A stretch of 64,000 nucleotides of DNA from a virus: positions 1-64,000 of IMG/VR virus record IMGVR_UViG_3300025467_000007. One strand, 5' to 3'. Below, piece by piece: positions 17,436 through 44,169 of the stretch. Both the position numbers and the translations under genes were made by a program. A model generated the notes under the pieces. That model did not search any database. It worked only from the letters and a program-made list of their open reading frames with translations, and was not told the origin of the DNA. Positions within the stretch are counted from its first letter, which is position 1. Each line of letters opens with the position of its first letter.

Positions 17436-17465
17436 ATTATACCATGATAAAGAATTAATGTACAT
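17436..17465 (-). promoter_or_regulatory. Phage promoter family member (ATGTAC-18-TATAAT)
   Basis: ATGTAC with the conserved extension ATTAATT, an 18-base spacer and TATAAT preceded by TGG (extended -10). Transcription runs towards 17411 with a leader of about 18 bases containing AGGA. One of ten such sites in the window. Confidence 0.75.
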
Positions 17466-17466
17466 G

Positions 17467-18144
17467 CTAATCTATTGAACCGTCTTCAACTTTAAGTTTT
17501 ATCTTTTTAGCTGGTTTTGGTTGGTCAACGATCTCATTTTGTTTTTCTGCTAACTTTTTAGATTGTTGGTCCACAGCCTCGAACCTCTTCTTAAGTCTTG
17601 GCTTGATGTCTTCTGAATTGAACCATAACTCGATGCCGTTTAGGACCTTCTGGATCTCATCAGCTGATAAGAAACCTTTATATGCATCCTTTAACAGCTT
17701 CTCACATTGGGCGATAGTGAAGTCTGTGTGTGCTTTAACTGTAGGAGTGTTACCGGCCGATCCGAATGATGCTGTGTGGATCATGATGTATGCTGTATCA
17801 TAGACATGGACAGCATGGCAATACATGGCGATAAGAGAGGCAGCAGAGTGACATGCACCCATAAGGAATGCAGTCACTTCTGCCTGAGATGAAAGGATGC
17901 CTGATATGATTGCTCCAGCAGAATCAAGGTTACCACCATTTGAGTTTATGTATAGGTGGATCTTGTCGTTCTCTGATGCATTTACAAGTAAAGAGATAAG
18001 CTCTCTATACTTTCCAGGTTCCTCTATCTCTTGATCTAGGAATACTTCATGTGTTCTATATACAGATTCAATCGTATTGATATGTACATTATTAAGTAAT
18101 CCACTAAATATACTAGGGACGTTTTCACCTGCAAGTTTGTTCAT
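17467..18144 (-). CDS. clpP: ClpP-like serine protease
   Basis: A 225-residue protein with the ClpP/crotonase fold: LYINSNGGNLDSAGAIISG forms the oxyanion region, MGACHSAASLIA carries the nucleophile S100, and YIMIHTASFG the catalytic H123. Length is close to bacterial ClpP (about 200), with a Lys-rich C-terminal extension. No Clp ATPase gene is in the window, so it may use a host unfoldase or act on prohead or host proteins. Ends close to a promoter for gp33; the downstream-coded SleB-like gene lies upstream. Confidence 0.82.
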   Translation of the reverse strand: MNKLAGENVPSIFSGLLNNVHINTIESVYRTHEVFLDQEIEEPGKYRELISLLVNASENDKIHLYINSNGGNLDSAGAIISGILSSQAEVTAFLMGACHSAASLIAMYCHAVHVYDTAYIMIHTASFGSAGNTPTVKAHTDFTIAQCEKLLKDAYKGFLSADEIQKVLNGIELWFNSEDIKPRLKKRFEAVDQQSKKLAEKQNEIVDQPKPAKKIKLKVEDGSID

Positions 18145-18146
18145 GA

Positions 18147-18674
18147 TTAACTCTTTCTATAAAATATATGATTCCCGATTACTGTTGTTATATGTACATT
18201 TTGCCATTGAGGATGTACTTCCTTTGTATGAAAGAACATGGCACCTTTTGTAACGTCTTCCATGTTCTTATAGTTCATGTATGCATATAAAGCTACGCTT
18301 CTTGCATGCTCAAATACTTCTTTCTCATGTCGTGTATACCTATAAGATATTGCTTTGATCCTCTTATAGTCATCACACCACCAAGAAAACTGACACGTCT
18401 CTTCTATCTTCTGTGTCATTGTACCACATATAGATGTTGGGTACTTTCCTGAGTGCACCCTGTTAAGGGTAACCATCGCGACAGCTATCTGTCCTTTTGT
18501 TGGTTCATATCCAGCTTCGTAGTATACGTTTTGTGCTAGACACTCGACTTGTTGTTTTTCAACCTTTGTTAGTCGTTTAGGTTGTTCGTACTTTGTAAAT
18601 AATGTTTGTGTTTGTGCTATGTTAAAGCAACACAGATAACACAGAGCCAATATTGCGGCGAAAGTCTTTCTCAT
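18147..18674 (-). CDS. Secreted cell-wall hydrolase, SleB/CwlJ type
   Basis: A 175-residue protein with an N-terminal signal peptide (MRKTFAAILALCYLCCFNIA). The mature part matches the Hydrolase_2 family: AQNVYYEAGYEPTKGQIAVA with the catalytic Glu, LNRVHSGKYP, TCQFSWWCD and a C-terminal FFHTKEVHPQW. These enzymes are lytic transglycosylase-like peptidoglycan hydrolases. Export by the Sec route suggests a lysis or wall-remodelling role independent of holin. A strong AAAAGGAGAA precedes the start, fed by the promoter at 18724. Confidence 0.85.
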   Translation of the reverse strand: MRKTFAAILALCYLCCFNIAQTQTLFTKYEQPKRLTKVEKQQVECLAQNVYYEAGYEPTKGQIAVAMVTLNRVHSGKYPTSICGTMTQKIEETCQFSWWCDDYKRIKAISYRYTRHEKEVFEHARSVALYAYMNYKNMEDVTKGAMFFHTKEVHPQWQNVHITTVIGNHIFYRKS

Positions 18675-18723
18675 GGGGATATTCTCCTTTTGATAGTACT
18701 TAGCTTTTTATGCGCTTAGTAGT

Positions 18724-18753
18724 ATTATACTTTAGTTATGAATTAAAGTAAAT
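18724..18753 (-). promoter_or_regulatory. Phage promoter family member (ATTTAC-18-TATAAT)
   Basis: ATTTAC plus TTTAATT, 18 bases, TATAAT; it overlaps the last codons of the exonuclease gene and drives the SleB-type gene at 18674 with a leader of about 43 bases carrying AAAAGGAGAA. Confidence 0.7.
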
Positions 18754-19393
18754 TTAATTTTTTGTATTGTTGACGGATATCAACTAATTGATTAATGAAG
18801 CCCTTACGCTTCTGTTGGAAGATTTGTGGTTTTGCATCGTCTACTCCTATGATTATCGTTAAGTCTGGAACTTTAATTCCTGTAAGTTCTTCGAACATAA
18901 CTGAATAAGCAGTTGCCTGTAAAAAGTAATGATCTATATTGTTAATATCTTTGGGGTTTTTGGATGTCTTAAAGTCTATTATACTTAATAACCCATCAAA
19001 CTCTCCGATACAGTCAACGGTTCCTGCCAATTGTAGTTTATCGGAATATAACTTGCTCTCTAGAGCATGTATATTGTCTATCTTATCCACCACTGGTTTT
19101 AAACTATTCCATAATTCAACGTCGAACATGTCGGGTTGAAGTGGCTTCCCTAACAGGAAATCCTCACATAGTGTATGGATACGAGTACCTCGGCTAGAAG
19201 CCTTTGCTGATACTCTATTTGCCTCTTCTTCACCTACTCGCTTACGCCATTCAGCGATGAATTGTCTATTCAAGAGGCCTGTTACTTGTGTTACGCTTGG
19301 ATATTTATCTCCAGATGGGGTTTGATATACTCGCCCCTCTGGAGAATCAATCCTTTGTAACACCGGAAACTCATGATATATAAAGTTCTTCAA
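18743..19393 (-). CDS. PD-(D/E)XK exonuclease, RecB-like
   Basis: A 216-residue nuclease. Motifs in order: a helical region with SSRGTRIHTLCEDFL (His motif), LAGTVDCIGEFDGLLSIIDF KTSK (Asp, then D-x-K), and QATAYSVMFEEL (QxxxY). This is the Cas4/RecB-type arrangement found in small phage exonucleases that process DNA ends for replication or recombination. Cas4 iron-sulfur cysteines are not seen. Confidence 0.8.
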   Translation of the reverse strand: MKNFIYHEFPVLQRIDSPEGRVYQTPSGDKYPSVTQVTGLLNRQFIAEWRKRVGEEEANRVSAKASSRGTRIHTLCEDFLLGKPLQPDMFDVELWNSLKPVVDKIDNIHALESKLYSDKLQLAGTVDCIGEFDGLLSIIDFKTSKNPKDINNIDHYFLQATAYSVMFEELTGIKVPDLTIIIGVDDAKPQIFQQKRKGFINQLVDIRQQYKKLNLL

Positions 19394-19609
19394 TTATTTT
19401 TTATCTGCGAACTTTGCCTTAAGAGTCGGTTTCTTTTTATGTTCTTTTTTAACTTCAGGCTTTGCTGCTTGTTTCTTTGCCGGTTCTGCCTTCTTAACCA
19501 CAGCAGGTTTTGCCTTAACTGGCTCTGCTGCACAAACATAAACAGTGTAACTAATTAAACCAAATGTAACTGCGATTGCTGTTAATTCTTTTGCATAATT
19601 TTTTAACAT
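19394..19609 (-). CDS. Small exported Lys/Ala-rich protein
   Basis: A 71-residue protein with one N-terminal hydrophobic segment (LTAIAVTFGLISYTVYVCAA), then a highly basic Lys/Ala/Pro tail (KKAEPAKKQAAKPEVKKEHKK). It could be a membrane anchor with a periplasmic basic tail or a signal-peptide protein. A cationic periplasmic tail could bind DNA or outer-membrane polyanions, possibly in lysis; this is inference. Promoter -10 lies 9 bases before its ATG. Confidence 0.65.
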   Translation of the reverse strand: MLKNYAKELTAIAVTFGLISYTVYVCAAEPVKAKPAVVKKAEPAKKQAAKPEVKKEHKKKPTLKAKFADKK

Positions 19610-19618: not shown

Positions 19619-19648
19619 ATTATATAATAAAAGTTAATAAAAGTACAA
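19619..19648 (-). promoter_or_regulatory. Phage promoter family member (TTGTAC-18-TATAAT)
   Basis: TTGTAC with TTTTATTAA, 18 bases, TATAAT; only 9 bases separate the -10 from ATG 19609, so the mRNA has at most a few leader bases. Confidence 0.75.
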
Positions 19649-21903: not shown

Positions 21904-21933
21904 AGTATACCACAACTCCTAATTAATGTACAT
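21904..21933 (-). promoter_or_regulatory. Phage promoter family member (ATGTAC-18-TATACT)
   Basis: ATGTAC plus ATTAATT, 18 bases, TGG-TATACT. Seven bases lie between the -10 and ATG 21896, so transcription should begin at the start codon itself (leaderless). Confidence 0.75.
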
Positions 21934-23415: not shown

Positions 23416-23604
23416 CTAAATTTTGAAGATATACTGCCTACTGGATATCCAACGCATCTTCTTAGGTGAGTTCTTCTTCTTGTTTGATACGATCTCAGGG
23501 ATATCCACATCACTCTCATATACTGAGGTGACTTGATCTGAGTTGATAGCGATTTGTTTTGTTGCATTGCCATCGAATGCATTTTCAAATAATACGATTG
23601 GCAT
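23416..23604 (-). CDS. Small conserved protein, possibly frameshifted
   Basis: A 62-residue protein starting MPIVLFENAFDGNATKQIAI, coupled by TAATG to the upstream gene. It stops after SSRQYIFKI, leaving about 75 bases before RNase H. A second frame is open over that gap up to 23334, exactly at the RNase H start, so the original product may have been about 90 residues joined by a +1 shift. Function unknown. Confidence 0.55.
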   Translation of the reverse strand: MPIVLFENAFDGNATKQIAINSDQVTSVYESDVDIPEIVSNKKKNSPKKMRWISSRQYIFKI

Positions 23605-24698
23605 TAGAACGCTCCCAATAAAATAGTTTCTTCGTTGATCCGACCATTTGGAACTGTTGGCTTGGTCGTTAAAGCCTTTGCTGCTGTATTCAAATTCTTT
23701 TTACTTATAGATAAGTCTTTGAAGAACTTCTCAGGATTCCTAAGTGTCCATGACCATGACTTAGCTACACTGTAATTAATTATAGTTGTACCCTTAACTG
23801 ATAATAAGTCTGAGTCATCAGCTATATAAGCCACAAGTTTTCTATACTTGATATTATATGCCCATAACTCCTTAGCACCAACGATGTCTGTAGGATTACA
23901 TGACTTAAGATTCAATAGATCGTGCTTAAACATATACTTAAGTTTCTTAACTAATACTGCAGGAGGCTTAACCTTAACTACCCTTGGCTTCTTAACAGTA
24001 ACTTGATGTTGAGCACAGTCATCTACAATAGATTGGATCGCAGCTCTAAACTTTTTAAGTTCTGTCTTAGTAAGGAATGAATAGCCTTCTGTAAGTTGTT
24101 CATCTGTACCAGTCAATGCTTCATCTATCTCATCAACGTTAAGCTTATAGTAGTCACCGATACGTTTAGCGACCATGCCTGACACGTTGTTAGATAACAA
24201 GTGTGCTTTAGTATTGAAGTCCCACGTTTTAGAATGGATAAACTTATCAATAGCATAGTCGATGTCCTCAGAGGCAGCACGAGCTGCATCAGTCACACGT
24301 TGATCTATAGAGATGACTGGTGCCTTAGGACGATCGTCTACTATAGGTTGATTATAAGAATAGCACTCGTATAATGAGTCAAGCTTATCTTGTATACCCT
24401 TTTGATCCTTATCAGATAGATGCTCACCTTTATTGAGTATAGTAATAAGAGATCCTAATGATAGGAACTCATAATCTGGCGCCTTTGATAAGACATCATA
24501 ATATTTCTTATTAGTCTTCTTAAGATAATTATGTACGGCCTTAGCACGTTCACTGTTATCCATATTAAGGTTATAGTATCCTAAAGCTTTCATCAAAGAC
24601 GTACGATAGTCGTCTTGTGTTACCACAGGAGCGCCAGCACCTATGCCTTTAGCGATAGCCTTTTCTTGCCATTCTTTGGTTGGTTTTTTAGTTTTCAT
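23604..24698 (-). CDS. Large hypothetical protein of the replication region
   Basis: A 364-residue basic protein, probably helical, without recognised domain. Features: N-terminal KKPTKEWQEKAIAKGIGAGA, a middle part with Asp/Lys-rich helices, a Lys/Val/Pro stretch (VKKPRVVKVKPPAVLVKK), and a C-terminal segment with ELWAYNIKYRKLVAYIADDS and KSWSWTLRNPEKFF, which may be a beta-rich binding domain. It lies between DsbA and RNase H. Promoter -10 is 6 bases upstream of ATG 24698 (leaderless). Confidence 0.75.
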   Translation of the reverse strand: MKTKKPTKEWQEKAIAKGIGAGAPVVTQDDYRTSLMKALGYYNLNMDNSERAKAVHNYLKKTNKKYYDVLSKAPDYEFLSLGSLITILNKGEHLSDKDQKGIQDKLDSLYECYSYNQPIVDDRPKAPVISIDQRVTDAARAASEDIDYAIDKFIHSKTWDFNTKAHLLSNNVSGMVAKRIGDYYKLNVDEIDEALTGTDEQLTEGYSFLTKTELKKFRAAIQSIVDDCAQHQVTVKKPRVVKVKPPAVLVKKLKYMFKHDLLNLKSCNPTDIVGAKELWAYNIKYRKLVAYIADDSDLLSVKGTTIINYSVAKSWSWTLRNPEKFFKDLSISKKNLNTAAKALTTKPTVPNGRINEETILLGAF

Positions 24699-24704: not shown

Positions 24705-24734
24705 AGTATACCATAATTAATTATTAATGTACAA
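24705..24734 (-). promoter_or_regulatory. Phage promoter family member (TTGTAC-18-TATACT)
   Basis: TTGTAC plus ATTAAT, 18 bases, TGG-TATACT. Six bases separate it from ATG 24698, which implies a leaderless mRNA. Confidence 0.75.
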
Positions 24735-24992
24735 TTATTCAGCTTCTTGGTTTGTAACTGTTTGATAGATCGTCTCAAACTCATCGTTCAAAGCTACCTC
24801 TTCATTAAAGTTTTGCTTATGATACGTATTAGCAAGCTTAGCAAGCGTTTTCTTAGGGATCTTAAATTCGTCATAAAGGTTCTTAAGTACTTCTTTTACA
24901 AAGTCCTTCTCAGCCTCAACGCGTGTCATAGAATCAGAGATCTCGTTAAGAGCACCTTTGATTTTCTTTTTGTCTTCGTCTAATAATTGCAT
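24735..24992 (-). CDS. dsbA: DsbA-like dsDNA-binding protein for late transcription
   Basis: An 85-residue helical protein: MTRVEAEKDFVKEVLKNLYD EFKIPKKTLAKLANTYHKQN FNEEVALNDEFETIYQ. It agrees in length and pattern with T4 DsbA (89 residues), which binds DNA near late promoters. As in T4 it is in the rnh-33-32 neighbourhood. It follows a structured terminator-like RNA region. Confidence 0.75.
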   Translation of the reverse strand: MQLLDEDKKKIKGALNEISDSMTRVEAEKDFVKEVLKNLYDEFKIPKKTLAKLANTYHKQNFNEEVALNDEFETIYQTVTNQEAE

Positions 24993-25213: not shown

Positions 25214-25345
25214 TTCGTCATAGCCAGGTCCCCAGAAGTGAGGGTCGATACCACCTAGATAGTTTAGGTCTTCGTTATCATCCTCTTCAATAGGATCTGG
25301 CACTGGTGTAATGTAACCGTCTTTTTTGTCTTTGACATTTAACAT
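25211..25345 (-). CDS. Small acidic protein, 44 residues, leaderless
   Basis: Starts MLNVKDKKDGYITPVPDPIE and continues with an acidic stretch EEDDNED and a C-terminus DPHFWGPGYDE. The ATG lies 6 bases after the -10 of the promoter at 25352, which supports a real gene despite its size. No family recognised; small acidic early proteins often bind host proteins, but this is only a possibility here. Confidence 0.6.
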   Translation of the reverse strand: MLNVKDKKDGYITPVPDPIEEDDNEDLNYLGGIDPHFWGPGYDE

Positions 25346-25351: not shown

Positions 25352-25381
25352 ATTATACCCTTTTTTTGGTTTATTGTACAT
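25352..25381 (-). promoter_or_regulatory. Phage promoter family member (ATGTAC-18-TATAAT)
   Basis: ATGTAC, 18-base spacer, GGG-TATAAT; the extension after GTAC is AATAAAC, a weaker match. ATG 25345 follows the -10 by 6 bases. Confidence 0.7.
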
Positions 25382-26476: not shown

Positions 26477-26506
26477 ATTATACCGGAAAGTCTAATTAAT
26501 GTACAT
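26477..26506 (-). promoter_or_regulatory. Phage promoter family member (ATGTAC-18-TATAAT)
   Basis: ATGTAC plus ATTAATT, 18 bases, CGG-TATAAT. It drives the operon starting at 26445 with a leader of about 25 bases containing GGAGAG. Confidence 0.75.
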
Positions 26507-26536
26507 AGGCCCCCTTAAAATAAATAAGGTATACAG

Positions 26537-26569
26537 ATCAATAACTTACGTATTATGCAAGTTATTGAT
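26537..26569. repeat. 11-bp inverted repeat in the intergenic region before the cyclase island
   Basis: ATCAATAACTT and AAGTTATTGAT form a perfect 11-bp stem with an 11-base loop (ACGTATTATGC). It lies in the 190-base gap downstream of the cyclase (its transcripts would run into it) and upstream of a phage promoter. It has no T-run, so it may be an operator or a processing or stability hairpin. Confidence 0.5.
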
Positions 26570-26634: not shown

Positions 26635-28644
26635 CTACTTAGATTGTGCCCTAAAAGTGCCATCCCATTCAGCCGGGAGGCCCTCTTCCATACGTTCAAT
26701 CATGTTCATGTAGTACTGCTTGATGGTTACGCTGTCATCTTCGACCAAACCTTTGGCCCATTTGATAGCTTTATCCCAGTTTCCACGATAGTATTCTTTT
26801 ATGTATTCATTATGCGCGTGTTTAACTGTCTCACCGATCGTGTAGATCTTAATGCCTTCAGTCTTACCTTTCACTGCGATGTTATCTAGTTCAATAACGT
26901 TGTAATGGTCTTTAACTAGTTCTGCTGTGCGTGCACCTAAAACAAGCTTAACACCGTACGGCTTAGATTGTCCTTCAAGCCTTGACGCCAAATTGACTCC
27001 GTCACCGAGACAAGTATAGTCAAAACGCTGGCTAGAACCCATATTACCCACAACGACATCAGCAGTGTTAATACCAAGTCCCATCCCGAAAGCCGGTACG
27101 CCTTCTTTAGCAATCTCTTGATTGAACGCATCTAAGTCTCCTAACATTGATAGTGCAGTCTTAACTGCGTTGAGAGCATGATCTTTATCATCAAGTGGAG
27201 CATTCCAAAAAGCCATCTGTGCATCACCAATATACTTATCAAGTGTTCCGTTGTTCTCTATGATCTTAGCAGTCATAGCTGTCATGTAACGATTCATGAT
27301 CTTAGTTAAGCCTTGTACATCCTTACCATAGTGTTCTGATATGGTTGTGAAGCCTCTTACGTCTGTAAACATGATACTTAATTCTCTTGTTTCACCACCA
27401 AGCTTTAATAGTTCTGGGTTCTTTTGTAGTTTATCAACCATTGCTGGTGATAGGTATGTACCAAACTGTTTCTTGATCTGTAGTTTTTGGTTTAACTCGC
27501 TTACAAACTTAACAGTATATGTATGAGCATATACGATAGCCAAAGCAACGATAGGAAAAATCCCATCCAAAAGAACGCCGTAATGAGAGAAAACATAACT
27601 AGAAGCGTAATACAAAAAGCCAAGAAGAAGCAAAATAGGGATAATAGCATATTTCCACCTTGATAGGATAATGATAAAGATTGATAATAATATGACTGCT
27701 AATACTTCAGCGCCATCTGCCCAGCCAGGTCGTGATATGCTAGTACCTGATGTGAGCGTGTCTAGAACTGACGCTTGAAGGTAATGAGGAAAGAGTCCAC
27801 CTCGAGCTGTTGCAACTGGGTTGTTAAGTCCCTTTGCGGTAAGCCCAACAATGACGATACCTCCGTTAAATGATTCTGGGAGGTCCATAAGACTGTGTTC
27901 AATTGGAGTCGAGCTCCAGTCGACCCAGATACGACCGATTGGGTCGGTTGTAATTTTGGAGAAGCTTGGGATTCGAACAGCTTCGATTCCTGAAACGGAA
28001 GATTTGACTTGGAAACTTGGGTCTCCGACTGCGACACGCAAAGTTTCGAGAGTAATACTTGGGTAGAGCAAGCCTCCGCTTGATACGACCATAGGGATAC
28101 GACGAACAACACCATCAATTTCAGGTAAGACATTTACAACTCCTATTCCAGCAGCTTTGTTATTAAATAGTTCAATGTTAGGTTGGATCCCAGGGTAATC
28201 AATAGTGAAGTCATGAGCTGGTGATCCAATCTCAGAGACTCCCGGTCTAAATGCTTGTCTAACTTGTTTATCTGTCGATGCTACCTGAGGTAAGACGACA
28301 GGGTGTCCAGCAAGACTATCAACCAAGTTGGCATCGCGTCCAAAGCGATCAGAGTCAGGCATAAAGATATTAAAAACAACAAGACCAGCATGACGGTGAT
28401 AAAGATCCTCGATAATATTTGCATATTGACTCCTTGGAAATGGGAATTGACCAAGTCTTTCAATCGACTTATCATCGATGTTAACCACGTGGACTTGCTT
28501 GGAAACGGTCTGTGGTTTACTAGTAATTAGTGTATCAAAGTACCTTAGTCGAACTGACTGCACAAAAGATGGGTCAGATGCTCTAATACCTACTAGCAGA
28601 GCTAACGTTAACAGTGCAAACCAGGGTGATAATAATCTTTTCAT
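26635..28644 (-). CDS. CHASE2 sensor adenylate cyclase, class III
   Basis: A 669-residue membrane enzyme making cAMP. After an N-terminal membrane helix, residues 30-300 form an extracytoplasmic CHASE2 sensor (VVNIDDKSIERLGQFPFPRS, FNIFMPDSDRFGRD). Three further membrane helices (313-376) lead to a class III cyclase domain (420-610). Both metal aspartates are present (MFTDVRGF, D428; KYIGDAQMAFW, D474), K470 and T544 fit adenine recognition, and N551 and R555 in GDGVNLASRLE are the transition-state residues, so it should be active. In bacteria such enzymes often sit next to FecR proteins, and a FecR gene lies 2 kb upstream here. An origin by transfer from a host is likely. Confidence 0.9.
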   Translation of the reverse strand: MKRLLSPWFALLTLALLVGIRASDPSFVQSVRLRYFDTLITSKPQTVSKQVHVVNIDDKSIERLGQFPFPRSQYANIIEDLYHRHAGLVVFNIFMPDSDRFGRDANLVDSLAGHPVVLPQVASTDKQVRQAFRPGVSEIGSPAHDFTIDYPGIQPNIELFNNKAAGIGVVNVLPEIDGVVRRIPMVVSSGGLLYPSITLETLRVAVGDPSFQVKSSVSGIEAVRIPSFSKITTDPIGRIWVDWSSTPIEHSLMDLPESFNGGIVIVGLTAKGLNNPVATARGGLFPHYLQASVLDTLTSGTSISRPGWADGAEVLAVILLSIFIIILSRWKYAIIPILLLLGFLYYASSYVFSHYGVLLDGIFPIVALAIVYAHTYTVKFVSELNQKLQIKKQFGTYLSPAMVDKLQKNPELLKLGGETRELSIMFTDVRGFTTISEHYGKDVQGLTKIMNRYMTAMTAKIIENNGTLDKYIGDAQMAFWNAPLDDKDHALNAVKTALSMLGDLDAFNQEIAKEGVPAFGMGLGINTADVVVGNMGSSQRFDYTCLGDGVNLASRLEGQSKPYGVKLVLGARTAELVKDHYNVIELDNIAVKGKTEGIKIYTIGETVKHAHNEYIKEYYRGNWDKAIKWAKGLVEDDSVTIKQYYMNMIERMEEGLPAEWDGTFRAQSK

Positions 28645-28773: not shown

Positions 28774-29664
28774 CTATGCTCCTTGTATTTTAAACTTAAT
28801 ATACTCTGTTATCAAGTCAGCGACGTCAGTCTCACAATACTGTTCAAACCCTTTAAATCCTGGGTTTGAGTTAGCTTCGCATACTCTAAAGCCTCTTTTG
28901 TCGAATAGTAAATCCACACCTGCAATATCTAGCTTAAGTACTTTTGCAGTCTCTCTAGCTATATATTCAATCTCGTCTGTTATCTCGTAGTTATGACCAG
29001 TGCCACCATTAGTGATGTTAGCTCTGAAGTCACCCTCTGGTGCTGTACGTCTCATAGCTCCTACTACTTTACCACCTATGACAAGAACCCTTAAGTCCTC
29101 ACCTGGACGGTCACCAAGATATTCCTGTACTATCATCGTCTTCTTAGCGTTTAAGATATCGATGAACTCCATCATCTTTTTGTACTCTCTTATGGTCTCA
29201 CAGAGGTGTACACCTTCCCCATAAGAACCTGATACCAGCTTAACGACACACGGAAAGCCTATGTTATCAGTCACTAAGTCATCGTCTATAGGCAACCTTA
29301 CTAACATCGTGTTTGGTATAGGTAACCCGTTCTTACTTAATATCTGTGATGTCCTTAGCTTATCTTTTACTATCTCGACAGCAGAGCTTGAGTTAACACA
29401 CATCACGCCTGCTTGTTCAAAGTGTCTTATCACTGCTAGCTGGAAAGGTAGTATGCCTGCACCCAACCTAACCAATAATAACTTTGGTAACTCTATCGTC
29501 TCACCGTCGTACTTGATACCTTCACGTAGGTCTTTATCTACGATGATGTCAAAGTTATCAGGATGGCAGACACGAGCAGTTATACCTTTTGATGTAAAGC
29601 TTTCTACGAGCTTATTAGTCTCGTACTCGTTTCTTTCCTGCTTTGATAATATAATTACAGTCAT
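28774..29664 (-). CDS. rimK: RimK-like ATP-grasp ligase
   Basis: A 296-residue ATP-grasp enzyme. Order: substrate-binding N-domain (LLVRLGAGILPFQLAVIRHF), VKDKLRTSQILSKNGLPIPN, the ATP-grasp core FPCVVKLVSGSYGEGVHLCE, EYLGDRPGEDLRVLVIGGKV, and the metal motif FRVCEANSNPGF. RimK adds glutamates to the C-terminus of ribosomal protein S6; relatives modify other peptides. A phage copy could retune host ribosomes or tag a phage peptide. The -10 is 5 bases from ATG 29664, so the mRNA is leaderless. Confidence 0.85.
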   Translation of the reverse strand: MTVIILSKQERNEYETNKLVESFTSKGITARVCHPDNFDIIVDKDLREGIKYDGETIELPKLLLVRLGAGILPFQLAVIRHFEQAGVMCVNSSSAVEIVKDKLRTSQILSKNGLPIPNTMLVRLPIDDDLVTDNIGFPCVVKLVSGSYGEGVHLCETIREYKKMMEFIDILNAKKTMIVQEYLGDRPGEDLRVLVIGGKVVGAMRRTAPEGDFRANITNGGTGHNYEITDEIEYIARETAKVLKLDIAGVDLLFDKRGFRVCEANSNPGFKGFEQYCETDVADLITEYIKFKIQGA

Positions 29665-29669: not shown

Positions 29670-29699
29670 ATTATAACTTATTATTTAATTAATGTAAAA
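29670..29699 (-). promoter_or_regulatory. Phage promoter family member (TTTTAC-18-TATAAT)
   Basis: TTTTAC plus ATTAATT, 18 bases, TATAAT; 5 bases before ATG 29664 (leaderless). It gives the RimK, 43-residue protein and cyclase genes their own promoter, separate from the curli genes upstream. Confidence 0.75.
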
Positions 29700-31683: not shown

Positions 31684-32314
31684 CTTGAGTCACACTTATA
31701 TTATTTGAATTACCAATGTTGTTAATACTAATACTATGGCCTGCACCAGCACCAGTACCATTTGCACCTGTTTGGCTTGTGGTGATACTGTTATTGTTAC
31801 CTGCAATTGCTATAGTATCTGTAACATTTTTACTGTTTATGGTACTTGTTATCGAATTACTATTTCCTACAGTAGTGATGCTATAGTTATAATTACTCGA
31901 ATCTCTCATTGTTCCTATATTCAATACAGAATTATTGTTACTACCTGAAAACGATAAATTTAAATTACCGTTATCAGTACCAAAGTTTCCGTAATTCAAT
32001 ACGATACCGTTACTATTACCATCTTGAGATATTACTCCTGTAGAACCACCACCAACAAAATTACCTGTGATAGAGTTGTTCATACCGTTTTGTGTGATAC
32101 CTAAATTAATACTGTTACCATCAATCACAAATGATGGACTACCAACATTAGTAGGATCTCCTACCGTGTTGTTAGAACCTGTTTGTGTTATGGTGACTGT
32201 AGAATTATCAGCGTTAGTTTGGTCAATATAAACACTATTACCTCCACTATCGACTGCCAAAGCACTAAATGCTAATAACAAACCCATCACAAAAGTGATA
32301 AGCTTACTTTTCAT
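31607..32314 (-). CDS. csgA: Curlin-repeat amyloid protein (CsgA/CsgB-like)
   Basis: A 235-residue exported protein from ATG 32314, placed behind AAGGAGAAAAAG; signal peptide MKSKLITFVMGLLLAFSALA. The mature part has about eight imperfect repeats with the curlin consensus of Gln-x-Gly-x-x-Asn ladders: VTITQTGSNNTV, LGITQNGMNNSI, GVISQDGNSNGI, SVTQDGTTNPN and a final VSVIQH. Curlins polymerise outside the cell into amyloid fibres after export through CsgG. It overlaps csgG upstream by 11 bases and fecR downstream by 77. Major and minor subunit types cannot be told apart. Confidence 0.83.
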   Translation of the reverse strand: MKSKLITFVMGLLLAFSALAVDSGGNSVYIDQTNADNSTVTITQTGSNNTVGDPTNVGSPSFVIDGNSINLGITQNGMNNSITGNFVGGGSTGVISQDGNSNGIVLNYGNFGTDNGNLNLSFSGSNNNSVLNIGTMRDSSNYNYSITTVGNSNSITSTINSKNVTDTIAIAGNNNSITTSQTGANGTGAGAGHSISINNIGNSNNISVTQDGTTNPNSAIVNLTGSGASVSVIQH

Positions 32315-33086
32315 TCTTTTTCTCCTTAAATTGCCACATACCTTTTTTTTCACCTTGAATAATCAATTGCTCTACCGCCAGGTCTGTAGCTGCTTTTATG
32401 GCGTGTATAGAAGCCTCTGTTTGAGATATTCCTATCTCTTGTTCAAAATTTTGTGTTCCATTATCAAAAAACTTAAATATAGCTACACCTGCTGTATAAC
32501 TCAATATGGTTTTTTGAGCGTTTACTGTTAATAGCACTTCACCTGTTTGTGTGCTAATTGCTCTTATGCTTACAGTTACAACATCTTCTTGATATTGTGT
32601 GTCTGGTCCAATTCCTAACCAACGAACACCAATACCACCTGTTCTTATGTTTGTATCGTAACTTATAATACCTCCTTCAATAATCATACCTGCATATAAC
32701 ATAGGTCTGATACCAGAAGGATCTTTTGCTTCATCTCTTGCTGAACGAATTAATTGTCTTTCTTTTAATAAATTATCAATACCAACTCGTTCTACTATTC
32801 TAAACCATTTTCCGTCACCAGCATCTTCTAATGACTTTAACAATACTGTTTCACCACCTTGTGTTACAGCGGATGATAACTTAGCAATCGTAGCAGAATC
32901 TTTTCTTTGACCAGTTTTATCAGCAAAGCTATAAACAGCTACAACTACTTTACCATTAACAGGTTCAGGTAACGGAGTCTTAGCCCATTTCATTGGCATA
33001 AGCTCTGGTTCTTTTTTAATAACATTCATTGGCGGTGTGCAACCAATTACTGCTATACACATAAGTGCTATTAATATTTTTTTCAT
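32304..33086 (-). CDS. csgG: Curli secretion channel lipoprotein CsgG
   Basis: A 260-residue lipoprotein with the lipobox VIGC (C16) and the CsgG core: KVVVAVYSFADKTGQRKD, SSAVTQGGETVLLKSLEDAG, WFRIVERVGIDNLLKERQLI, GMIIEGGIISYDTNIRTGG, VTVSIRAISTQTGEVLLTV. Near the E. coli length (277), with both transmembrane hairpin regions represented, so it should form the nonameric outer-membrane pore. It is encoded between CsgF and the curlin, as a compact operon. CsgE is missing. Confidence 0.9.
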   Translation of the reverse strand: MKKILIALMCIAVIGCTPPMNVIKKEPELMPMKWAKTPLPEPVNGKVVVAVYSFADKTGQRKDSATIAKLSSAVTQGGETVLLKSLEDAGDGKWFRIVERVGIDNLLKERQLIRSARDEAKDPSGIRPMLYAGMIIEGGIISYDTNIRTGGIGVRWLGIGPDTQYQEDVVTVSIRAISTQTGEVLLTVNAQKTILSYTAGVAIFKFFDNGTQNFEQEIGISQTEASIHAIKAATDLAVEQLIIQGEKKGMWQFKEKKNEK

Positions 33087-33087
33087 A

Positions 33088-33525
33088 TTAGAAACTTAAT
33101 GTTCCAATAGGAATACTAACTTGCGTCACATTACCATTTTGATCATTAACAGTCATGTTAATCATGTCAGCTGTTTTGGTGTATGTAATAGTATTACCTT
33201 CAATGGTAACAGTTCCACTATTTTGTGGATTCTCACCAAACAGATTATTAATTAATTGTGTAGATAATTGAGCATAGACTCTGCTCTCAAAGTTAGTCAA
33301 GAACTTGGCTAATATAGTATTATTAGCGGCATTTGCTGCATCAATGGCTGCCTGTTTCTGTGCCGCTTCTATTGCTTGCTTGCGTGTGTATTCTGTGTTC
33401 TCGATAGTCTGTACATGAGAACTATATCCTATCCCAGAGAAGGAAGGAGATTTAAACTGAAATACTTGTTCCGCATAAGCGTTACTGCTTATCAGTACTA
33501 CTGCTAGGATCCTGGCGAGCTTCAT
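33088..33525 (-). CDS. csgF: Curli assembly factor CsgF
   Basis: A 145-residue exported protein (signal peptide MKLARILAVVLISSNAYA). The mature N-terminus reads FQFKSPSFSGIGYSSHVQTI, matching the CsgF segment that plugs into the CsgG channel, followed by a helical Ala/Gln region and a beta C-terminus. CsgF couples secretion to nucleation at the cell surface. Starts inside the upstream membrane-protein gene (44-base overlap) and ends 1 base before csgG. Confidence 0.87.
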   Translation of the reverse strand: MKLARILAVVLISSNAYAEQVFQFKSPSFSGIGYSSHVQTIENTEYTRKQAIEAAQKQAAIDAANAANNTILAKFLTNFESRVYAQLSTQLINNLFGENPQNSGTVTIEGNTITYTKTADMINMTVNDQNGNVTQVSIPIGTLSF

Positions 33526-35994: not shown

Positions 35995-36974
35995 TATTGG
36001 GCTCCTCCCCATACATCTTCCCATGAACCTTTAAGTGCACCCTTCGCATAGTCGGTTACACGGTTCTCAAAGAAGTTACCATGAACTGGAGCATTGATCA
36101 TCTCCTCAACCCATGGTAGCGGGTTCTTTTTAACTTTAAAAATACCTTTTAATCCGAGTGAGATCAAACGCCTATCAGCGATGTAACGGATGTATTGTTT
36201 AACATCTACTGGCTCTAACTCTCTCATGTGTGTACCTGAGAATGATAAATCAATAAACTTATCTTCGAGTTGAACCATCTTCTCAGCTATAGTATATATG
36301 CGACCCTTCAAGTCATCATTCCATATCTCGTTGTTCTCTTTGATAAATGTTTTAAATAGCTTAATCATGTTCTCAGCGTGCATAGTTTCATCAACGATTG
36401 ACCATGTAACGATCTGACCCATACCTTTCATCAAACCATGACGAGGAAAATTAAGCAGCATGATAAAAGAACTAAAAAGCTGCATACCCTCCGTGAAAGC
36501 AGAGAATACTGCGATGTGCGTTGCAGTTGAAGATAAGTCACCGTTTTTCGAACTGAGTTCCGTAACATAGTCGTGTTTGTCCTTCATTTCTTGGTATTCA
36601 AGGAATTCATTATATGTAGATTCTGGCATACCTAACGTCTCAATCAAGTGAGAGTATGCTGCGATATGTAATGCTTCGCGAGCCGCAAAGCCCATAAGCA
36701 TCATTCGAACTTCTGGTTGAGGGAAGTATGGTAGGTAGTTCTTAACATAACCGCCGGCAACGTCGATGTCACCTTGCGTAAAGAACCTAAATATATTAGT
36801 AAGGAACTGCTTCTCTTCCTTTGTTAACTTCTTCTTCCAGTCCTTAACATCTTCTGCCATAGGAACTTCTGTATGTAACCAATGTGCCTGTTCATGTTTC
36901 AACCATGCGTCATATGCCCATGGATAATTGAATGGCTTAAAGTATTCTCTCGTATCGGTTAATTTGTCTGCCAT
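35994..36974 (-). CDS. nrdB: Ribonucleotide reductase class I beta subunit NrdB
   Basis: A 326-residue radical-generating subunit for dNTP synthesis. Metal ligands and radical Tyr are in place: FTQGDIDVAGG (Asp), REALHIAAYSHL (E100, H103, radical Y107), FTEGMQLF (E162), DETMHAENM (E196, H199). The C-terminus ends KGSWEDVWGGAQ rather than the usual alpha-binding acidic tail. It is separated from nrdA by four other genes. TAATG couples it to the genes on both sides. Confidence 0.93.
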   Translation of the reverse strand: MADKLTDTREYFKPFNYPWAYDAWLKHEQAHWLHTEVPMAEDVKDWKKKLTKEEKQFLTNIFRFFTQGDIDVAGGYVKNYLPYFPQPEVRMMLMGFAAREALHIAAYSHLIETLGMPESTYNEFLEYQEMKDKHDYVTELSSKNGDLSSTATHIAVFSAFTEGMQLFSSFIMLLNFPRHGLMKGMGQIVTWSIVDETMHAENMIKLFKTFIKENNEIWNDDLKGRIYTIAEKMVQLEDKFIDLSFSGTHMRELEPVDVKQYIRYIADRRLISLGLKGIFKVKKNPLPWVEEMINAPVHGNFFENRVTDYAKGALKGSWEDVWGGAQ

Positions 36975-37516
36975 TAGATGTTCAACTCTTTCTTTAGTTC
37001 GTTAAATAAATTCATACAATGATCAAATCCTGCTATTGCTTCGTCTAATAGATCTATACTTAACTTAGAGTCTATGTATGCAATGCATGCAGGTCTATCT
37101 TCAAATGCATAAGCATGACTGGGTCCTGGTACTAACTTACCTATCATCTTACCACCGTATAAATCACCCATATGTCTTACATATACATGAGCCATGATCT
37201 GGTCTGGTCGACTATCAGCTAAAGATAATAGATGAAACATGTAATTCTTTGTACTTATATAAGGTGCCACGATAGTTCCACCTAACTCTGCAATATCAAG
37301 TGATATCTTATGAGTACGTCTAAGGTCTTCCATACCTTCAAACAGCCCATGAACTGTAGCGCATGCTTCTAGTGTAGAGTATATATGCCACATCTGTTGA
37401 AGGTATGTAAGATAGTGTTCCTTAGTTATCTTACCAGTGAACATATACTGGACAAAATCAGATCCTTCGACCTCTTTGTGTTTTGCTCGAGTATGTTCTG
37501 TAAGTATCGTTGCCAT
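36974..37516 (-). CDS. ho: Heme oxygenase-like protein
   Basis: A 180-residue protein of the heme oxygenase fold: LTEHTRAKHKEVEG gives the proximal His (H13), YLQQMWHIYSTLEA the first helices, and HVYVRHMGDLYGGKMIGK the distal helix with its Gly-rich kink (GDLYGG). It would cleave heme to biliverdin, CO and iron. Cyanophages pair it with bilin reductases, none of which is seen here; iron release or heme signalling is an alternative. One-base overlaps with both neighbours. Confidence 0.82.
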   Translation of the reverse strand: MATILTEHTRAKHKEVEGSDFVQYMFTGKITKEHYLTYLQQMWHIYSTLEACATVHGLFEGMEDLRRTHKISLDIAELGGTIVAPYISTKNYMFHLLSLADSRPDQIMAHVYVRHMGDLYGGKMIGKLVPGPSHAYAFEDRPACIAYIDSKLSIDLLDEAIAGFDHCMNLFNELKKELNI

Positions 37517-38427: not shown

Positions 38428-39867
38428 TTATGTCCAGACCCTATAGTTTTCGTAAGCACATGGATTTTTTGGATCCAACTCTCTGTAGAATAAACTGTTG
38501 ACATCTTTGAATGGTGTCCATTTTGTCTCGACGAATGGGACTTTACCTAGATATGGGTCAGCATACTTCAATACGAAGTCATATGGTATTGCTTCTGGCT
38601 CCACATAACCTTCATTAGGATTCTCTATTGCCCATATCATTGCACCTAACATTGATGCAACAACCTGTAATGATGTAGCGTTCTCTCCTGGTATTAGTCT
38701 CCTTGCTTCCTCGATAGTTAACTGTGAACCGTGCCACATACCAAAGTCATCCCCCAATAATAGCACACCTAATTCATCCATACCACCCACGATCTCATCC
38801 TTAGCGATGCGTAGTTTAGTATGTAGATCTAACTCTTTACCTCTCATCTCATGTACTGAAGCGATAGCTGCATCACATGGTTGATAGACGTAGTATACTG
38901 ATGGCCTAAACGATTTATCTTTAGTTTCAAAGTATTCTGATATCGTTACAGCTTCTGAGTGTTGGATATGGAAGCCATTGTATTGACCACCTAATGGAAC
39001 CCATGATCTTAGTAACACTGATACACCGGGTTGGAATAGGTATGCAGTGTTACCTTGTGCTTTACCATTCTCTGGGTTAGTATCTTCGTGTGTACCCCAA
39101 CCCATCTCAGCGGGAGCTCTACCTTCTGCCCAAAAACCTTCACATGACCATGTATTTACAAACTCATTCTTTTCTTTTGGTTCACCAAGGACTTGTGTGT
39201 CACGTTCTGCAACATGTACTACCTTAACACCAACCTTCTTCATCAACTGTGCCCAACCTTCTTTATCGGTTGGTACTACATACTTGATGCCTTTCTTTTC
39301 TGCTAACTTGAGTAACGCTCTCTTAGTAAGGTGTGTCACCAAACCAGGGTTTGCACCATGAGTTCCAACAACCGTTGCTGCACCTTTGTACTTCTCTGCC
39401 ATAGCACGAACTTCTTTATGAGTATGGTATAGTGTACGTTCTGCTAGTTTAGGGATAGTCTCGTCTGGTTCATCTTCCCATCTTTCAAGAGATGTATTGA
39501 TGTAATGAACACCATGTTTTAAACACCATTCAAGGATCTCAAGTGCACCGATGTTTAGTGATACATCGATAACAAACCCACCTTCATCTACATACTTTGA
39601 TAGTGTAGATTCTAAGTTATTCCTTAAGATCTCTTTCTTAATGTATGTGACTGCAGACTTACCATTACGTTCTTTAAAAGTTTTTTCGTTCTCACCCTTC
39701 TCAAGCACTATAATGTTAGATGCTTCAGATGTGATGTGTCTAAGGATTATTGGTAAGATCGCTTGACCTACAGATCCATAACCTAAGATCAAGATCTTCC
39801 TACCATCAAACTTTACATACTTCTTATTTTTATAGTCTATGAACTTACTAAAATTTTCTATTGCCAT
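38428..39867 (-). CDS. hss: Homospermidine synthase
   Basis: A 479-residue enzyme of the saccharopine dehydrogenase-like family, equal to bacterial homospermidine synthase in length (about 477). An NAD-binding motif is at residues 25-38 (ILILGYGSVGQAIL); later motifs include VSLNIGALEILEWCLKHGVH YINTSLERW, VVGTHGANPGLVTHLTKRAL, TWSCEGFWAEGRAPAEMGWG and YYVYQPCDAA. It makes homospermidine from putrescine and/or spermidine. Polyamines neutralise packaged DNA and support growth. The gene is inserted within the ribonucleotide reductase operon, next to nrdA. Confidence 0.87.
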   Translation of the reverse strand: MAIENFSKFIDYKNKKYVKFDGRKILILGYGSVGQAILPIILRHITSEASNIIVLEKGENEKTFKERNGKSAVTYIKKEILRNNLESTLSKYVDEGGFVIDVSLNIGALEILEWCLKHGVHYINTSLERWEDEPDETIPKLAERTLYHTHKEVRAMAEKYKGAATVVGTHGANPGLVTHLTKRALLKLAEKKGIKYVVPTDKEGWAQLMKKVGVKVVHVAERDTQVLGEPKEKNEFVNTWSCEGFWAEGRAPAEMGWGTHEDTNPENGKAQGNTAYLFQPGVSVLLRSWVPLGGQYNGFHIQHSEAVTISEYFETKDKSFRPSVYYVYQPCDAAIASVHEMRGKELDLHTKLRIAKDEIVGGMDELGVLLLGDDFGMWHGSQLTIEEARRLIPGENATSLQVVASMLGAMIWAIENPNEGYVEPEAIPYDFVLKYADPYLGKVPFVETKWTPFKDVNSLFYRELDPKNPCAYENYRVWT

Positions 39868-41725: not shown

Positions 41726-42593
41726 CTTGGGATTCTACTCGATAGGCTGATAGACACATATCTTTCAAACTATACTGTGGGTGTAACAGGTTGAATTGAT
41801 TAGTAATTGCTAGGGATGCTGGATCACCATCTCTTCGACCTGCCATTTTTACTTGAAAATCTATACCTGTGACCTCTTTCATGGTCTTAACGACTTCTTT
41901 GACTGAGTATCCATTTCCTGTTCCAATGCATTCATACGGCGTGTTAAAAGGACCATGCTTAATAGTATCACGAATAGCGTTAACAAGATCCACAACATGA
42001 ATATAGTCCCGCACGCAACTCCCATCACGTGTATCATAATCATCTCCATAAATTGACATATAATCTCTTTTACCTGCAGCTGTCTCTGCTGCTATCCTAA
42101 TTAGATGTGATGCTCGACCAACTTGTCTGTGTATACCATCAGAACCTGCAACGTTAAAGAACCTGAATATGGTATATGACCTTGATTGTTCTTTGATGAC
42201 GTCTTCTGCTGCCAACTTAGACCTTGCATAAGGTGACTGTGCATCAAATGCTCCAGCTGTAGACGCAAATATGAAGTGAGGTTCACCATTTATACGCTGC
42301 CTTAACATGTTTACAGTACCACCGAGGTTTGCTGAGTAGTACTTAGTTGGTCTTGCAACGCTTTCTTCTACTTGGATTAACCCTGCAAGGTGTACGATGA
42401 CATCATAGTCTTCATCAACCACATGCTTTGTTACATCTTTGATAAGGATTCGTTGACAGTATCTTGTAACATCATGATTATGTTTCTTCCATTCAATATC
42501 AAGACCGGTTATCTGGTGTCCAGCTTCAAATAAAACCTTTGCTAGATGAGATCCGATATAACCTGTAACACCTGTGATTAATACTTTCAACAT
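41721..42593 (-). CDS. galE: UDP-glucose 4-epimerase GalE-like
   Basis: A 290-residue short-chain dehydrogenase: NAD motif ITGVTGYIGSHL, VDEDYDVIVHLAGLIQVEES, catalytic YARSK (Tyr/Lys) with ASTAGAF, and DGSCVRDYIHVVDLVNAI. GalE interconverts UDP-glucose and UDP-galactose; a phage copy may alter host surface sugars or feed the glycosyltransferase at 44375. Start MLKVLITG was chosen because GGAG precedes it; an ATG at 42602 is possible. Overlaps the primase end. Confidence 0.85.
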   Translation of the reverse strand: MLKVLITGVTGYIGSHLAKVLFEAGHQITGLDIEWKKHNHDVTRYCQRILIKDVTKHVVDEDYDVIVHLAGLIQVEESVARPTKYYSANLGGTVNMLRQRINGEPHFIFASTAGAFDAQSPYARSKLAAEDVIKEQSRSYTIFRFFNVAGSDGIHRQVGRASHLIRIAAETAAGKRDYMSIYGDDYDTRDGSCVRDYIHVVDLVNAIRDTIKHGPFNTPYECIGTGNGYSVKEVVKTMKEVTGIDFQVKMAGRRDGDPASLAITNQFNLLHPQYSLKDMCLSAYRVESQV

Positions 42594-43594
42594 TTTCTCC
42601 ATTCAATAAACTTAAGCTTTGCTTCCATACCTTGGAATGTATTCGTATTTATCGTATCCATGATAGACTCAATAGATTTACCATGTAACACCATCTCATT
42701 AATATCTTTATATTCTATGGTTTCTGGCCATAGGCATACTGCGTAGTCCTCATCAATTAACTTCTCAATAAAGTTACAGATTTGTATGGATCTTGGTTCA
42801 TTATCCATGATAAGAGTTGCATTATCTTTGATTGCTTGTATGAACTTAGTATCAAACCCTGCACCAGCCACAGCTATTGCATTAGGGATAAACATAGAAT
42901 CTATTGGACCTTCTGTTACATAGATCCTCTTTATATGATCCATACGATCTATACCATAAATCTTTTCTTTCTTTTCATCTAACTTAATTGTGATGTACTT
43001 GGGTTGTTCTTTACCAAGTGCTCTACCTTGAAAAGCAATGCATTTACCATCTTCATCATAGAACGGGATGATTAACCTTGGTGTATCATATGTTGTATCT
43101 GTAAAACTATATTTTAGTTTATTGACAAACTCTTTAAACTTGGGTACATAGTAGAGATCTTTCCAACGATCTTGCGGTATCTTACGAGATATAACATATT
43201 GTAAAGCTTCTTGGTTAGATTGTAAAGGTTGTGCACCTGCCAAGATAAGGTCTGTACATATAGGCTGTGTGATCTCAGGTACGACTTCTTCGACCTTAGC
43301 ATGAGGTGTGTGCTTAGAAGTATTTTCTTTATACCGTTCTAGTACATACTCGCTATAGACAGCTGGGTCAAGGTGTTTAATGAGGTTACCAATGCTCATG
43401 GATATGCCACAGTTATGGCACTTATACACTAACCTGTCTTTGTTCTTATAGACAAAGCCTCGAGCCTTTAACTCGTTCTTTTTGGAATCACCACATATCG
43501 GACAACTAAAGTTCCAATAGTAGTCATTTTTCTTTTTAAAGTTACGGAGTTTGTAGGAGATTTGACCTACGAATCTTGCATCAATGTATAACAT
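42587..43594 (-). CDS. gp61: DNA primase gp61
   Basis: A 335-residue primase that makes RNA primers with the gp41 helicase. Zinc-binding domain: CPICGD (C31, C34) and CHNCG (C59, C62). Middle region binds template; TOPRIM domain: RIYVTEGPIDSMFIPNAIAV then LIMDNEPRS. Length matches T4 gp61 (342). The promoter -10 lies 6 bases before ATG 43594, giving a leaderless mRNA. Confidence 0.9.
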   Translation of the reverse strand: MLYIDARFVGQISYKLRNFKKKNDYYWNFSCPICGDSKKNELKARGFVYKNKDRLVYKCHNCGISMSIGNLIKHLDPAVYSEYVLERYKENTSKHTPHAKVEEVVPEITQPICTDLILAGAQPLQSNQEALQYVISRKIPQDRWKDLYYVPKFKEFVNKLKYSFTDTTYDTPRLIIPFYDEDGKCIAFQGRALGKEQPKYITIKLDEKKEKIYGIDRMDHIKRIYVTEGPIDSMFIPNAIAVAGAGFDTKFIQAIKDNATLIMDNEPRSIQICNFIEKLIDEDYAVCLWPETIEYKDINEMVLHGKSIESIMDTINTNTFQGMEAKLKFIEWRKC

Positions 43595-43600
43595 AGAACC

Positions 43601-43630
43601 ATTATATAATATAACTCAATTAAAGTACAT
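43601..43630 (-). promoter_or_regulatory. Phage promoter family member (ATGTAC-18-TATAAT)
   Basis: ATGTAC plus TTTAATT, 18 bases, TATAAT, 6 bases before the primase ATG. The -35 box touches the stop codon of the GroES-like gene. Confidence 0.75.
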
Positions 43631-43896
43631 TAATTTTCTAATACTGCTACGATGTTCTCTTCCAAGATCATGACACGTTGGGCACCATCCACGGTTGCCA
43701 GCTGAGCTTTTGACCAGTCCAATAGGATCTTGTCACCCACCTGCACTTCTGTCACCTCTGGGCCGATAGCCAGCACTGTACCTGTCTTTGATTCCCCATG
43801 ACGGTCTGAACCCTCGATTAATATGCCTGATGCAGTTTGGTTATCACGTTTGTTCTCTGCTACTAATACTTTCTTGCCTAATGGTCTTACTGCCAT
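43630..43896 (-). CDS. groES: GroES-like co-chaperonin (gp31 functional counterpart)
   Basis: An 88-residue protein from ATG 43896, preceded by AAAGGATAACATC. It aligns along its length with GroES: VRPLGKKVLVAENKRDNQTA SGILI (mobile loop), GTVLAIGPEV, VGDKILLDWSKAQ and MILEENIVAVLE. In T4, gp31 replaces GroES to let GroEL fold the large capsid protein. This one is closer to bacterial GroES than to T4 gp31 (111 residues). Confidence 0.85.
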   Translation of the reverse strand: MAVRPLGKKVLVAENKRDNQTASGILIEGSDRHGESKTGTVLAIGPEVTEVQVGDKILLDWSKAQLATVDGAQRVMILEENIVAVLEN

Positions 43897-43900
43897 GATG

Positions 43901-44134
43901 TTATCCTTTAATGAGCCAGATGTAGCTGGCAAATATGTTTAAGAAAAAGAAGTAAACATTTTGAATCAAGAGGGGTTTGTTTGGGTGGACCTTATGGAAA
44001 TGGTGCACAAGGATACCATGAGCTATGACAAAGCCTGGGAAAGCATACTTCATGAACGGCAGTTTTAATGCCACAGATGTACCGCATAGGATGAAAAGAG
44101 TCGTGGATAACCACTTAATATCAAAGTACTTCAT
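43901..44134 (-). CDS. Small membrane protein, two helices
   Basis: A 77-residue protein with two to three hydrophobic segments (LSTTLFILCGTSVALKLPFM; FPGFVIAHGILVHHF; VYFFFLNIFASYIWLI) and a His-rich turn. Leaderless: the -10 lies 5 bases before the ATG. Its end nearly touches the GroES-like gene. Unknown function. Confidence 0.65.
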   Translation of the reverse strand: MKYFDIKWLSTTLFILCGTSVALKLPFMKYAFPGFVIAHGILVHHFHKVHPNKPLLIQNVYFFFLNIFASYIWLIKG

Positions 44135-44139
44135 AATGT

Positions 44140-44169
44140 ATTATAATATAAACGTCAATTAATGTAAAA
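44140..44169 (-). promoter_or_regulatory. Phage promoter family member (TTTTAC-18-TATAAT)
   Basis: TTTTAC plus ATTAATT, 18 bases, TATAAT, 5 bases before ATG 44134 (leaderless). Confidence 0.75.

Follow-up and report, generated by a model that had tools for sequence, protein, structure and literature searches.

Probable early promoters of T4 type with a divergent -35 box in an IMG/VR virus genome, with possible ties to cytosine modification and leaderless messages

Introduction

The IMG/VR virus record IMGVR_UViG_3300025467_000007 is a 160,126-base virus with T4-type proteins. Among named phages, Melnitz, which infects OM43, and HTVC008M, which infects SAR11, are closest to it; both are classed under Kyanoviridae. 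Positions 1 to 64,000 of this record, hereafter the window, carry on their minus strand a family of ten short elements in which a box of the form (A/T)T(G/T)TAC precedes a TATAAT-like hexamer at a constant distance. An earlier reading made from the letters alone (the sequence-only reading) took these elements for promoters of early or middle genes and attributed their uniform geometry to a phage-specific activator or to modified sigma use. The locus raises the question of what would read such promoters, and why their upstream box is not TTGACA.

A probable promoter family of fixed geometry

All ten sites fit (A/T)T(G/T)TAC-N18-TATA(A/C)T exactly (10/10). The positions under which they were first reported are their low (3') ends, each site extending 30 bases upward. 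The predicted early promoters of the window, with distances counted from the -10 box, are the following:

17436..17465, minus strand: TGTACATTAATT-N11-TATAAT; ATG at 17411, 24 bases past the -10 box, Shine-Dalgarno-like sequence; leads to an open reading frame (ORF) of 86 amino acids, then gp33 and gp32
18724..18753, minus strand: TTTACTTTAATT-N11-TATAAT; ATG at 18674, 49 bases downstream; target homologous to the Melnitz 'cell wall hydrolase'
19619..19648, minus strand: TGTACTTTTATT-N11-TATAAT; ATG at 19609, 9 bases downstream
21904..21933, minus strand: TGTACATTAATT-N11-TATACT; ATG at 21896, 7 bases downstream; leaderless-type
24705..24734, minus strand: TGTACATTAATA-N11-TATACT; ATG at 24698, 6 bases downstream; leaderless-type; ORF 23604-24698
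25352..25381, minus strand: TGTACAATAAAC-N11-TATAAT; ATG at 25345, 6 bases downstream; leaderless-type
26477..26506, minus strand: TGTACATTAATT-N11-TATAAT; ATG at 26445, 31 bases downstream; Shine-Dalgarno-like sequence
29670..29699, minus strand: TTTACATTAATT-N11-TATAAT; ATG at 29664, 5 bases downstream; leaderless-type; ORF 28774-29664
43601..43630, minus strand: TGTACTTTAATT-N11-TATAAT; ATG at 43594, 6 bases downstream; leaderless-type; target gp61 primase
44140..44169, minus strand: TTTACATTAATT-N11-TATAAT; ATG at 44134, 5 bases downstream; leaderless-type; 77-amino-acid ORF 43901-44134

The plus strand of the 64-kb window has no match, and the fixed spacing is borne out: when spacings of 10 to 27 bases were scanned, none other than 18 gave more than one site per strand. 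The motif is also far rarer in randomized sequence, with second-order Markov sequences averaging 0.09 sites per 64 kb for the minus strand and 0.135 for the plus strand, and a maximum of 3 in 200 runs. Across the whole record the same pattern occurs 18 times on the minus strand and once on the plus strand; written as T(G/T)TAC(A/T)-N17-TATA(A/C)T, it gives 21 minus-strand matches (16 TGTAC and 5 TTTAC) and none on the plus strand, with no TTGAC at 17 bases. The (A/T)TTAATT sequence noticed beside the box is equally real, as it played no part in site selection and is conserved over a relaxed set of 25 sites, of which about three are probably chance sites within genes: T(-29) is found in 22/25, T(-28) in 25/25, A(-27) in 22/25 and A(-26) in 21/25.

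Counted as a hexamer, TGTACA or TTTACA, the box lies 17 bases from TATAAT and therefore in the ordinary sigma70 -35 register, so that the "18 bases" are a normal 17-base spacer. In sigma70 numbering, TGTACA spans -35 to -30, TTAATT spans -29 to -24, within the spacer and immediately 3' of the -35 hexamer, and TATAAT spans -12 to -7. The relaxed sites have a TATAAT-type -10 element, preceded in part of them by an extended -10 TG (T(-15) in 16/25, G(-14) in 15/25), and the region of an A-rich UP element, about -40 to -50, displays a weak A excess that does not exceed about 0.4 bits at any position.

The sites stand before start codons. Of 24 relaxed sites, 22 are followed, 5-49 bases past the -10 box, by an ORF of 40 or more codons that starts with ATG; in one, such an ORF begins at 128 bases, and one has none. 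The site at 63208-63236, one of the 21 above and 128 bases before the next start, is probably a chance match. Three of the 24 fall within an ORF of at least 100 amino acids, versus 88% of random positions. The targets, early by homology only, comprise gp43, gp61, uvsY, gp55, a CobS homologue and the gp33/gp32 operon. Two of them in the window are:

16924..17151, minus strand: gp33 late-transcription co-activator homologue, 50% identical to HTVC008M gp33; downstream of the 17436..17465 promoter
42587..43594, minus strand: gp61 primase homologue; leaderless-type start

Probable early promoters of a T4-type myovirus

The normal register and, in part of the sites, the extended -10, together with the lack of a detectable AsiA and of minus-strand MotA-box promoters described below, argue for early promoters of T4 type whose -35 box diverges, rather than for a MotA-like class. 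We consider it very probable that the ten sites serve early and replication genes of a T4-type myovirus and would be read by a host sigma70-type polymerase, with no phage factor required. In this view the box would be a -35 element in its normal place, with TGTACA or TTTACA substituted for TTGACA. The conserved TTAATT and, in part of the sites, a TG-type extended -10 come after it, and transcription would be expected early. The host-like -10, the non-standard upstream box and the assignment to early or middle genes were thus correctly recognized in the sequence-only reading (TATAAT-type -10; T(G/T)TAC and no TTGAC; early and replication targets). The proposed activator or modified sigma found no support as the cause of the geometry, since the spacer is of normal length and the T4 early consensus GTTTAC occupies the same place (PMC1524935).

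T4 early promoters share with these sites a -35 hexamer separated from TATAAT by 17 bases, the TTTAC form (5/21 here; 11 sites in the same register in our T4 scan), the TG that precedes the -10 in part of the sites, the placement before early genes and the use of one coding strand. They differ in that TGTAC is the main form here (16/21), TTAATT follows the hexamer and there is no G at -36. The sites are ordinary in kind and unusual in form.

Middle promoters of the T4 MotA/AsiA type, with which a comparison had been suggested, likewise place a conserved box 11 bases before the -10, and gp43, gp61 and uvsY are middle genes in T4. However, the box sequence differs, and the only promoter with a MotA box 12±1 bases from the -10 is on the plus strand, the minus strand having none. 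AsiA gave no match in the genome in a search in which T4 was positive, although a diverged AsiA could escape detection. In addition, the -35 hexamer is present here, whereas T4 middle promoters are without one (PMC2988021). This candidate was rejected as not of the same class, and we regard it as highly improbable. For Melnitz, early and late promoters are reported, and no middle ones, in the searched text of PMC9004378.

A clade-specific phage or virion protein that binds TGTACATTAATT and recruits or retargets the polymerase would account for how strongly TTAATT (-29 to -24) is conserved; TTAATT lies about where the MotA box sits, its 11 bases to the -10 being within the MotA-box distance. 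Nevertheless, the missing AsiA and minus-strand MotA-box promoters and a -35 hexamer in register count against a DNA-binding factor of this kind. Furthermore, the clade-specific conserved genes tested (Pfam/PHROG scans, selected ORFs) are nucleotide enzymes or unknowns, with no clear DNA-binding regulator among them, and this explanation appears improbable to us. An 85-amino-acid ORF at 24735-24992 has a weak match to 'Transcriptional regulator DsbA' (1.4e-9).

Several points weigh against recognition by an unaided host sigma70. T(-34), lost in TGTACA, is usually a strong sigma70 determinant, and TGTACA agrees with the sigma70 consensus at only 4/6 positions, so that either the sigma of the host or some factor may be different. 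Moreover, the spacer TTAATT is outside the T4 early consensus as given in the searched sources, is conserved beyond known sigma need and is unexplained by sigma alone.

A host sigma70 with a different -35 preference, the phages following their host group, is consistent with the occurrence of TGTAC and TTAA(A/T)T in contigs as diverged as the query and the related record G001 (72% in gp23), and with TTGAC in both HTVC008M (SAR11 host) and Melnitz (OM43 host). Against this, Straboviridae show the same swap among phages that infect a single host species. Nor does the exact motif serve as a promoter in the cellular genomes searched: it is present in at least 118 viral stretches but yields only 15 scattered single matches, without a clue to the host, in 257 Gb of cellular genomes (84,980 species), and therefore belongs to the phages and not to their hosts. 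We consider a different host sigma preference rather unlikely. No tRNA genes from which to infer the host were found.

A swap of the -35 box among relatives

Across 14 records, with both strands summed, TGTACW-N17-TATAMT and TTGACW-N17-TATAMT are mutually exclusive. The TGTAC and TTGAC counts are 16/0 in the query, 26/1 in G001, 5/0 in G002, 6/0 in G003, 24/0 in G004, 14/0 in G005, 12/0 in G006, 14/0 in G007, 19/0 in G008, 7/0 in G009 and 6/0 in G010, in contrast to 0/19 in Melnitz (14+5), 0/12 in HTVC008M (8+4) and 0/0 in T4. The ten G records were chosen for holding the motif, and G003 and G010 duplicate query sites and hence are not independent. No TGTAC form was found in Melnitz or HTVC008M, and no TTGAC-N17-TATAMT in the query. 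The early promoters of these two phages, the nearest isolated relatives, agree with those of the window in register and in serving early genes, and differ in having TTGAC and, in Melnitz, a conserved spacer of its own (TTTGTT...AACATG). This spacer is near-constant in the Melnitz promoters (loci L094-L096; TTGAC(A/T)TTTGTT-n-AACATG-TATA.T) and includes an inverted repeat, giving it an operator-like appearance. Loci anchored on ribonucleotide reductase have mixed promoter types, probably because this gene moves between phages.

gp42, cytosine modification and the -35 box

A gene-content comparison led to a gp42 orthologue just outside the window:

Record 65089-65772, minus strand: gp42 dCMP-hydroxymethylase orthologue; phmmer 5e-87 to T4 gp42, about 61% identical

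This gp42 has Asp at the thymidylate synthase Asn position, and its neighbors are a dCMP deaminase gene (64647-65132) and pyrophosphohydrolase-like genes, a cluster from which cytosine modification can be predicted. gp42 is absent from Melnitz and HTVC008M. No T4-type glucosyltransferase was found in the query at E<=1, and among eight genomes compared an alpha-glucosyltransferase occurs only in G001 and G005; hydroxymethylcytosine (hmC) is possible without a T4-type enzyme. A dATP/dGTP pyrophosphohydrolase-like gene (record 86942-87280, minus strand; PF18909, E 1e-35) is kept in G001, G005 and G006 and was not found in Melnitz or HTVC008M.

Cytosine modification may have reshaped the -35 box: phages with hydroxymethyl- or arabinosyl-type cytosine would avoid a G:C pair at -33, a position that sigma region 4 reads from the major groove, and would have T(T/G)TAC in its place. 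This would be an extra cause on top of the early-promoter reading and not an alternative to it, and we advance it as a possibility that falls short of being probable. RB69 DNA carries arabinosylated cytosine (PMC6024577), and, in favor of such a groove effect, a structural paper reports that the glucosylated group bars helix-turn-helix proteins from reading the T4 major groove (PMC6755090).

In a survey of 213 polymerase-anchored viral loci, restricted to non-coding sites, T(G/T)TAC was found in 39 loci with gp42 and 39 in which none was found, while TTGAC was found in one locus with gp42 (L430) and 69 without; 65 loci, five of them gp42-positive, had no site. Many of the 39 T(G/T)TAC loci lacking gp42 are short or may end before the usual place of the gene. 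Five longer than 10 kb (L420, L277, L376, L287 and L441) nevertheless lack it and were kept in the tree test. The L430 exception comprises one TTGAC versus two coding T(G/T)TAC. Matches inside genes were excluded by frame reading, namely the TTGAC of the four L283-group loci and the TGTAC shared by the L323 group, which lie in or resemble coding frames; with this recount an apparent reversal in L283 was dropped and the L430 exception was added.

Named phages mostly follow the same association. An unbiased scan of enriched 5-mers recovered TTTAC in T4, RB69, JS98 and Acj9 and TTGAC in RB49, Aeh1, Melnitz and HTVC008M, with RB43 weak and, as a point against the association, no clear motif in 44RR. 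gp42 or an RB69-type relative is present in T4, 44RR, RB69, JS98 and Acj9, and not in RB49, RB43 (only td), Aeh1, Melnitz or HTVC008M. The -33 base is reported as G in RB49, RB43 and Aeh1 and as the T of T4 in the others, which by implication include 44RR and RB69 (PMC1524935), and it agrees with gp42 in 6/6 phages. That paper ascribes the T4 early TTTAC, in place of consensus TTGAC, to the Alt protein, and hydroxymethylcytosine and gene 42 are unmentioned in its searched text. As RB49 and Aeh1 also have alt (PMC1524935), Alt does not explain the -35 difference. Because T4, RB49 and RB69 infect the same host species, their contrast cannot be ascribed to host sigma. TTGAC is not depleted genome-wide in gp42-positive genomes (observed/expected 0.87-1.16).

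For five further phages the prediction was set beforehand, and three of them followed it. Acj61, whose hydroxymethylase gene is RB69-type, has 43 TTTAC versus 1 TTGAC, KP15 (no gp42) has 0 versus 4, and JD18 has 2 versus 0, a weak case; CC31 (2 versus 2) and PS2 (0 versus 0) were uninformative. RB16, KVP40, 65, 133, S-PM2, Syn9 and Mosig had no match in a search with T4 gp42 alone, and their TTGAC/TTTAC counts (both strands, TAYAHT as -10) are 3/1, 3/3, 4/3, 1/4, 11/2, 9/2 and 9/4, respectively; Acinetobacter phage 133, with T(G/T)TAC and no gp42, is a real exception.

The phylogenetic evidence must be interpreted cautiously. In a 7-gene core tree of 14 phages, with the states of 44RR and RB43 taken from PMC1524935, the gp42/TGTAC phages form one clade, and independent pairs number two for and none against, which is not significant. 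The gp43 tree gives four for and none against at best, over-counts independent events and is affected by gp43 itself, which looks exchanged in the G001 lineage. With only two to four phylogenetically independent contrasts, a causal role of gp42 is therefore unproven. The gp43 of G001 (L234-L240) is 47% identical to that of the query, versus 50% for Melnitz gp43, although by most core genes G001 falls together with the query, and a polymerase gene exchange is therefore probable.

Biochemically, E. coli polymerase tolerates hmC in promoters in vitro, where it can even raise transcription, and glucosyl-hmC still allows it (PMC11550810). Also against the proposal, TGTAC retains a G:C pair at -34 and a C at -31, and the cytosine modification of the query phage is itself predicted from genes. 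Within the open-access literature, we recognized no paper proposing a link between modification and promoters. The alt gene does not track the -33 base. The association with gp42 offers a different and testable cause and, if true, would let DNA modification be guessed from the promoters of uncultured phages.

Predicted leaderless starts

The distance from the -10 box to the ATG is bimodal, with a sharp peak at 5-7 bases and a second mode at 22-35 bases. Among 442 distinct non-coding T(G/T)TAC sites, ATG lies 5, 6 and 7 bases past the -10 in 31, 75 and 11, versus 3, 7 and 5 among 271 control -10 boxes without a -35. An ATG 6 bases past the -10 has its A at +1; the peak therefore places the start codon at the expected transcription start and predicts leaderless early mRNAs. 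In the window, 6/10 sites are at 5-7 bases and one is at 9, and over all sites about a third, with ATG at the expected start, would give leaderless messages. The longer-distance mode is usually Shine-Dalgarno-like (202/273 at 16 bases or more); the corresponding 1/117 at short distances is a tautology and not evidence. A Mann-Whitney comparison over 18 phages takes no account of relatedness and is likewise given no weight.

The proteins downstream of 652 sites form 132 families, of which 29 are mostly and 8 partly leaderless-type (37/132), so that the pattern is not one site copied. When leaderless and leadered homologues were compared, the alignment began at residue 3 or earlier in both for 1399/2160 pairs, and many, though not all, leaderless starts are therefore backed by homology. 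T4 has an ATG at 4-10 bases at 0/6 of its non-coding sites, in contrast to the many ATG at +1 here, and the counts are 0/7 in RB49, 0/28 in Acj9, 2/9 in Melnitz, 1/6 in HTVC008M and 4/46 in TTGAC-type loci.

Leaderless mRNAs of bacteria and of lambda cI have their ATG at the 5' end and no Shine-Dalgarno sequence, as predicted here. The difference is that they are predicted here for a large share of T4-type early genes, including DNA polymerase and primase. We found no paper on leaderless early genes in T4-like phages in the open-access literature. The ATG-at-+1 peak is a strong prediction that phage replication genes would be translated without leaders, and a clue to the host translation machinery. 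The modification link and the leaderless peak, both new here, are the parts that deserve specialist attention. Their combination, in which cytosine hypermodification repeatedly rewrote the T4-type -35 box (TTGAC to TTTAC/TGTAC) as a readable modification signature and the clade of the window in addition fires many leaderless early mRNAs, is a tentative proposal that we think could well be wrong.

Other features of the genome

Late-type TATAAATA sites are separate from the motif sites and number 29 on the minus strand and 2 on the plus strand, the plus pair lying inside a plus-strand ORF cluster. An adenylate/guanylate cyclase homologue and a curli-type CsgF/CsgG/curlin/FecR cluster (26635-28644 and 30619-33525, minus strand) occur as in Melnitz and HTVC008M, and saccharopine dehydrogenase-like and heme oxygenase genes (38428-39867 and 36974-37516, minus strand) are located amid nucleotide genes. 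A repeat, AAGTTATTGAT, is found at about 26515-26559 of the window and at record positions 72414, 76004, 89403, 91584, 91613 and 92013. It is partly an inverted repeat (ATCAATAACTT-N11-AAGTTATTGAT), lies in gaps upstream of several promoters and is a candidate terminator, operator or origin element.

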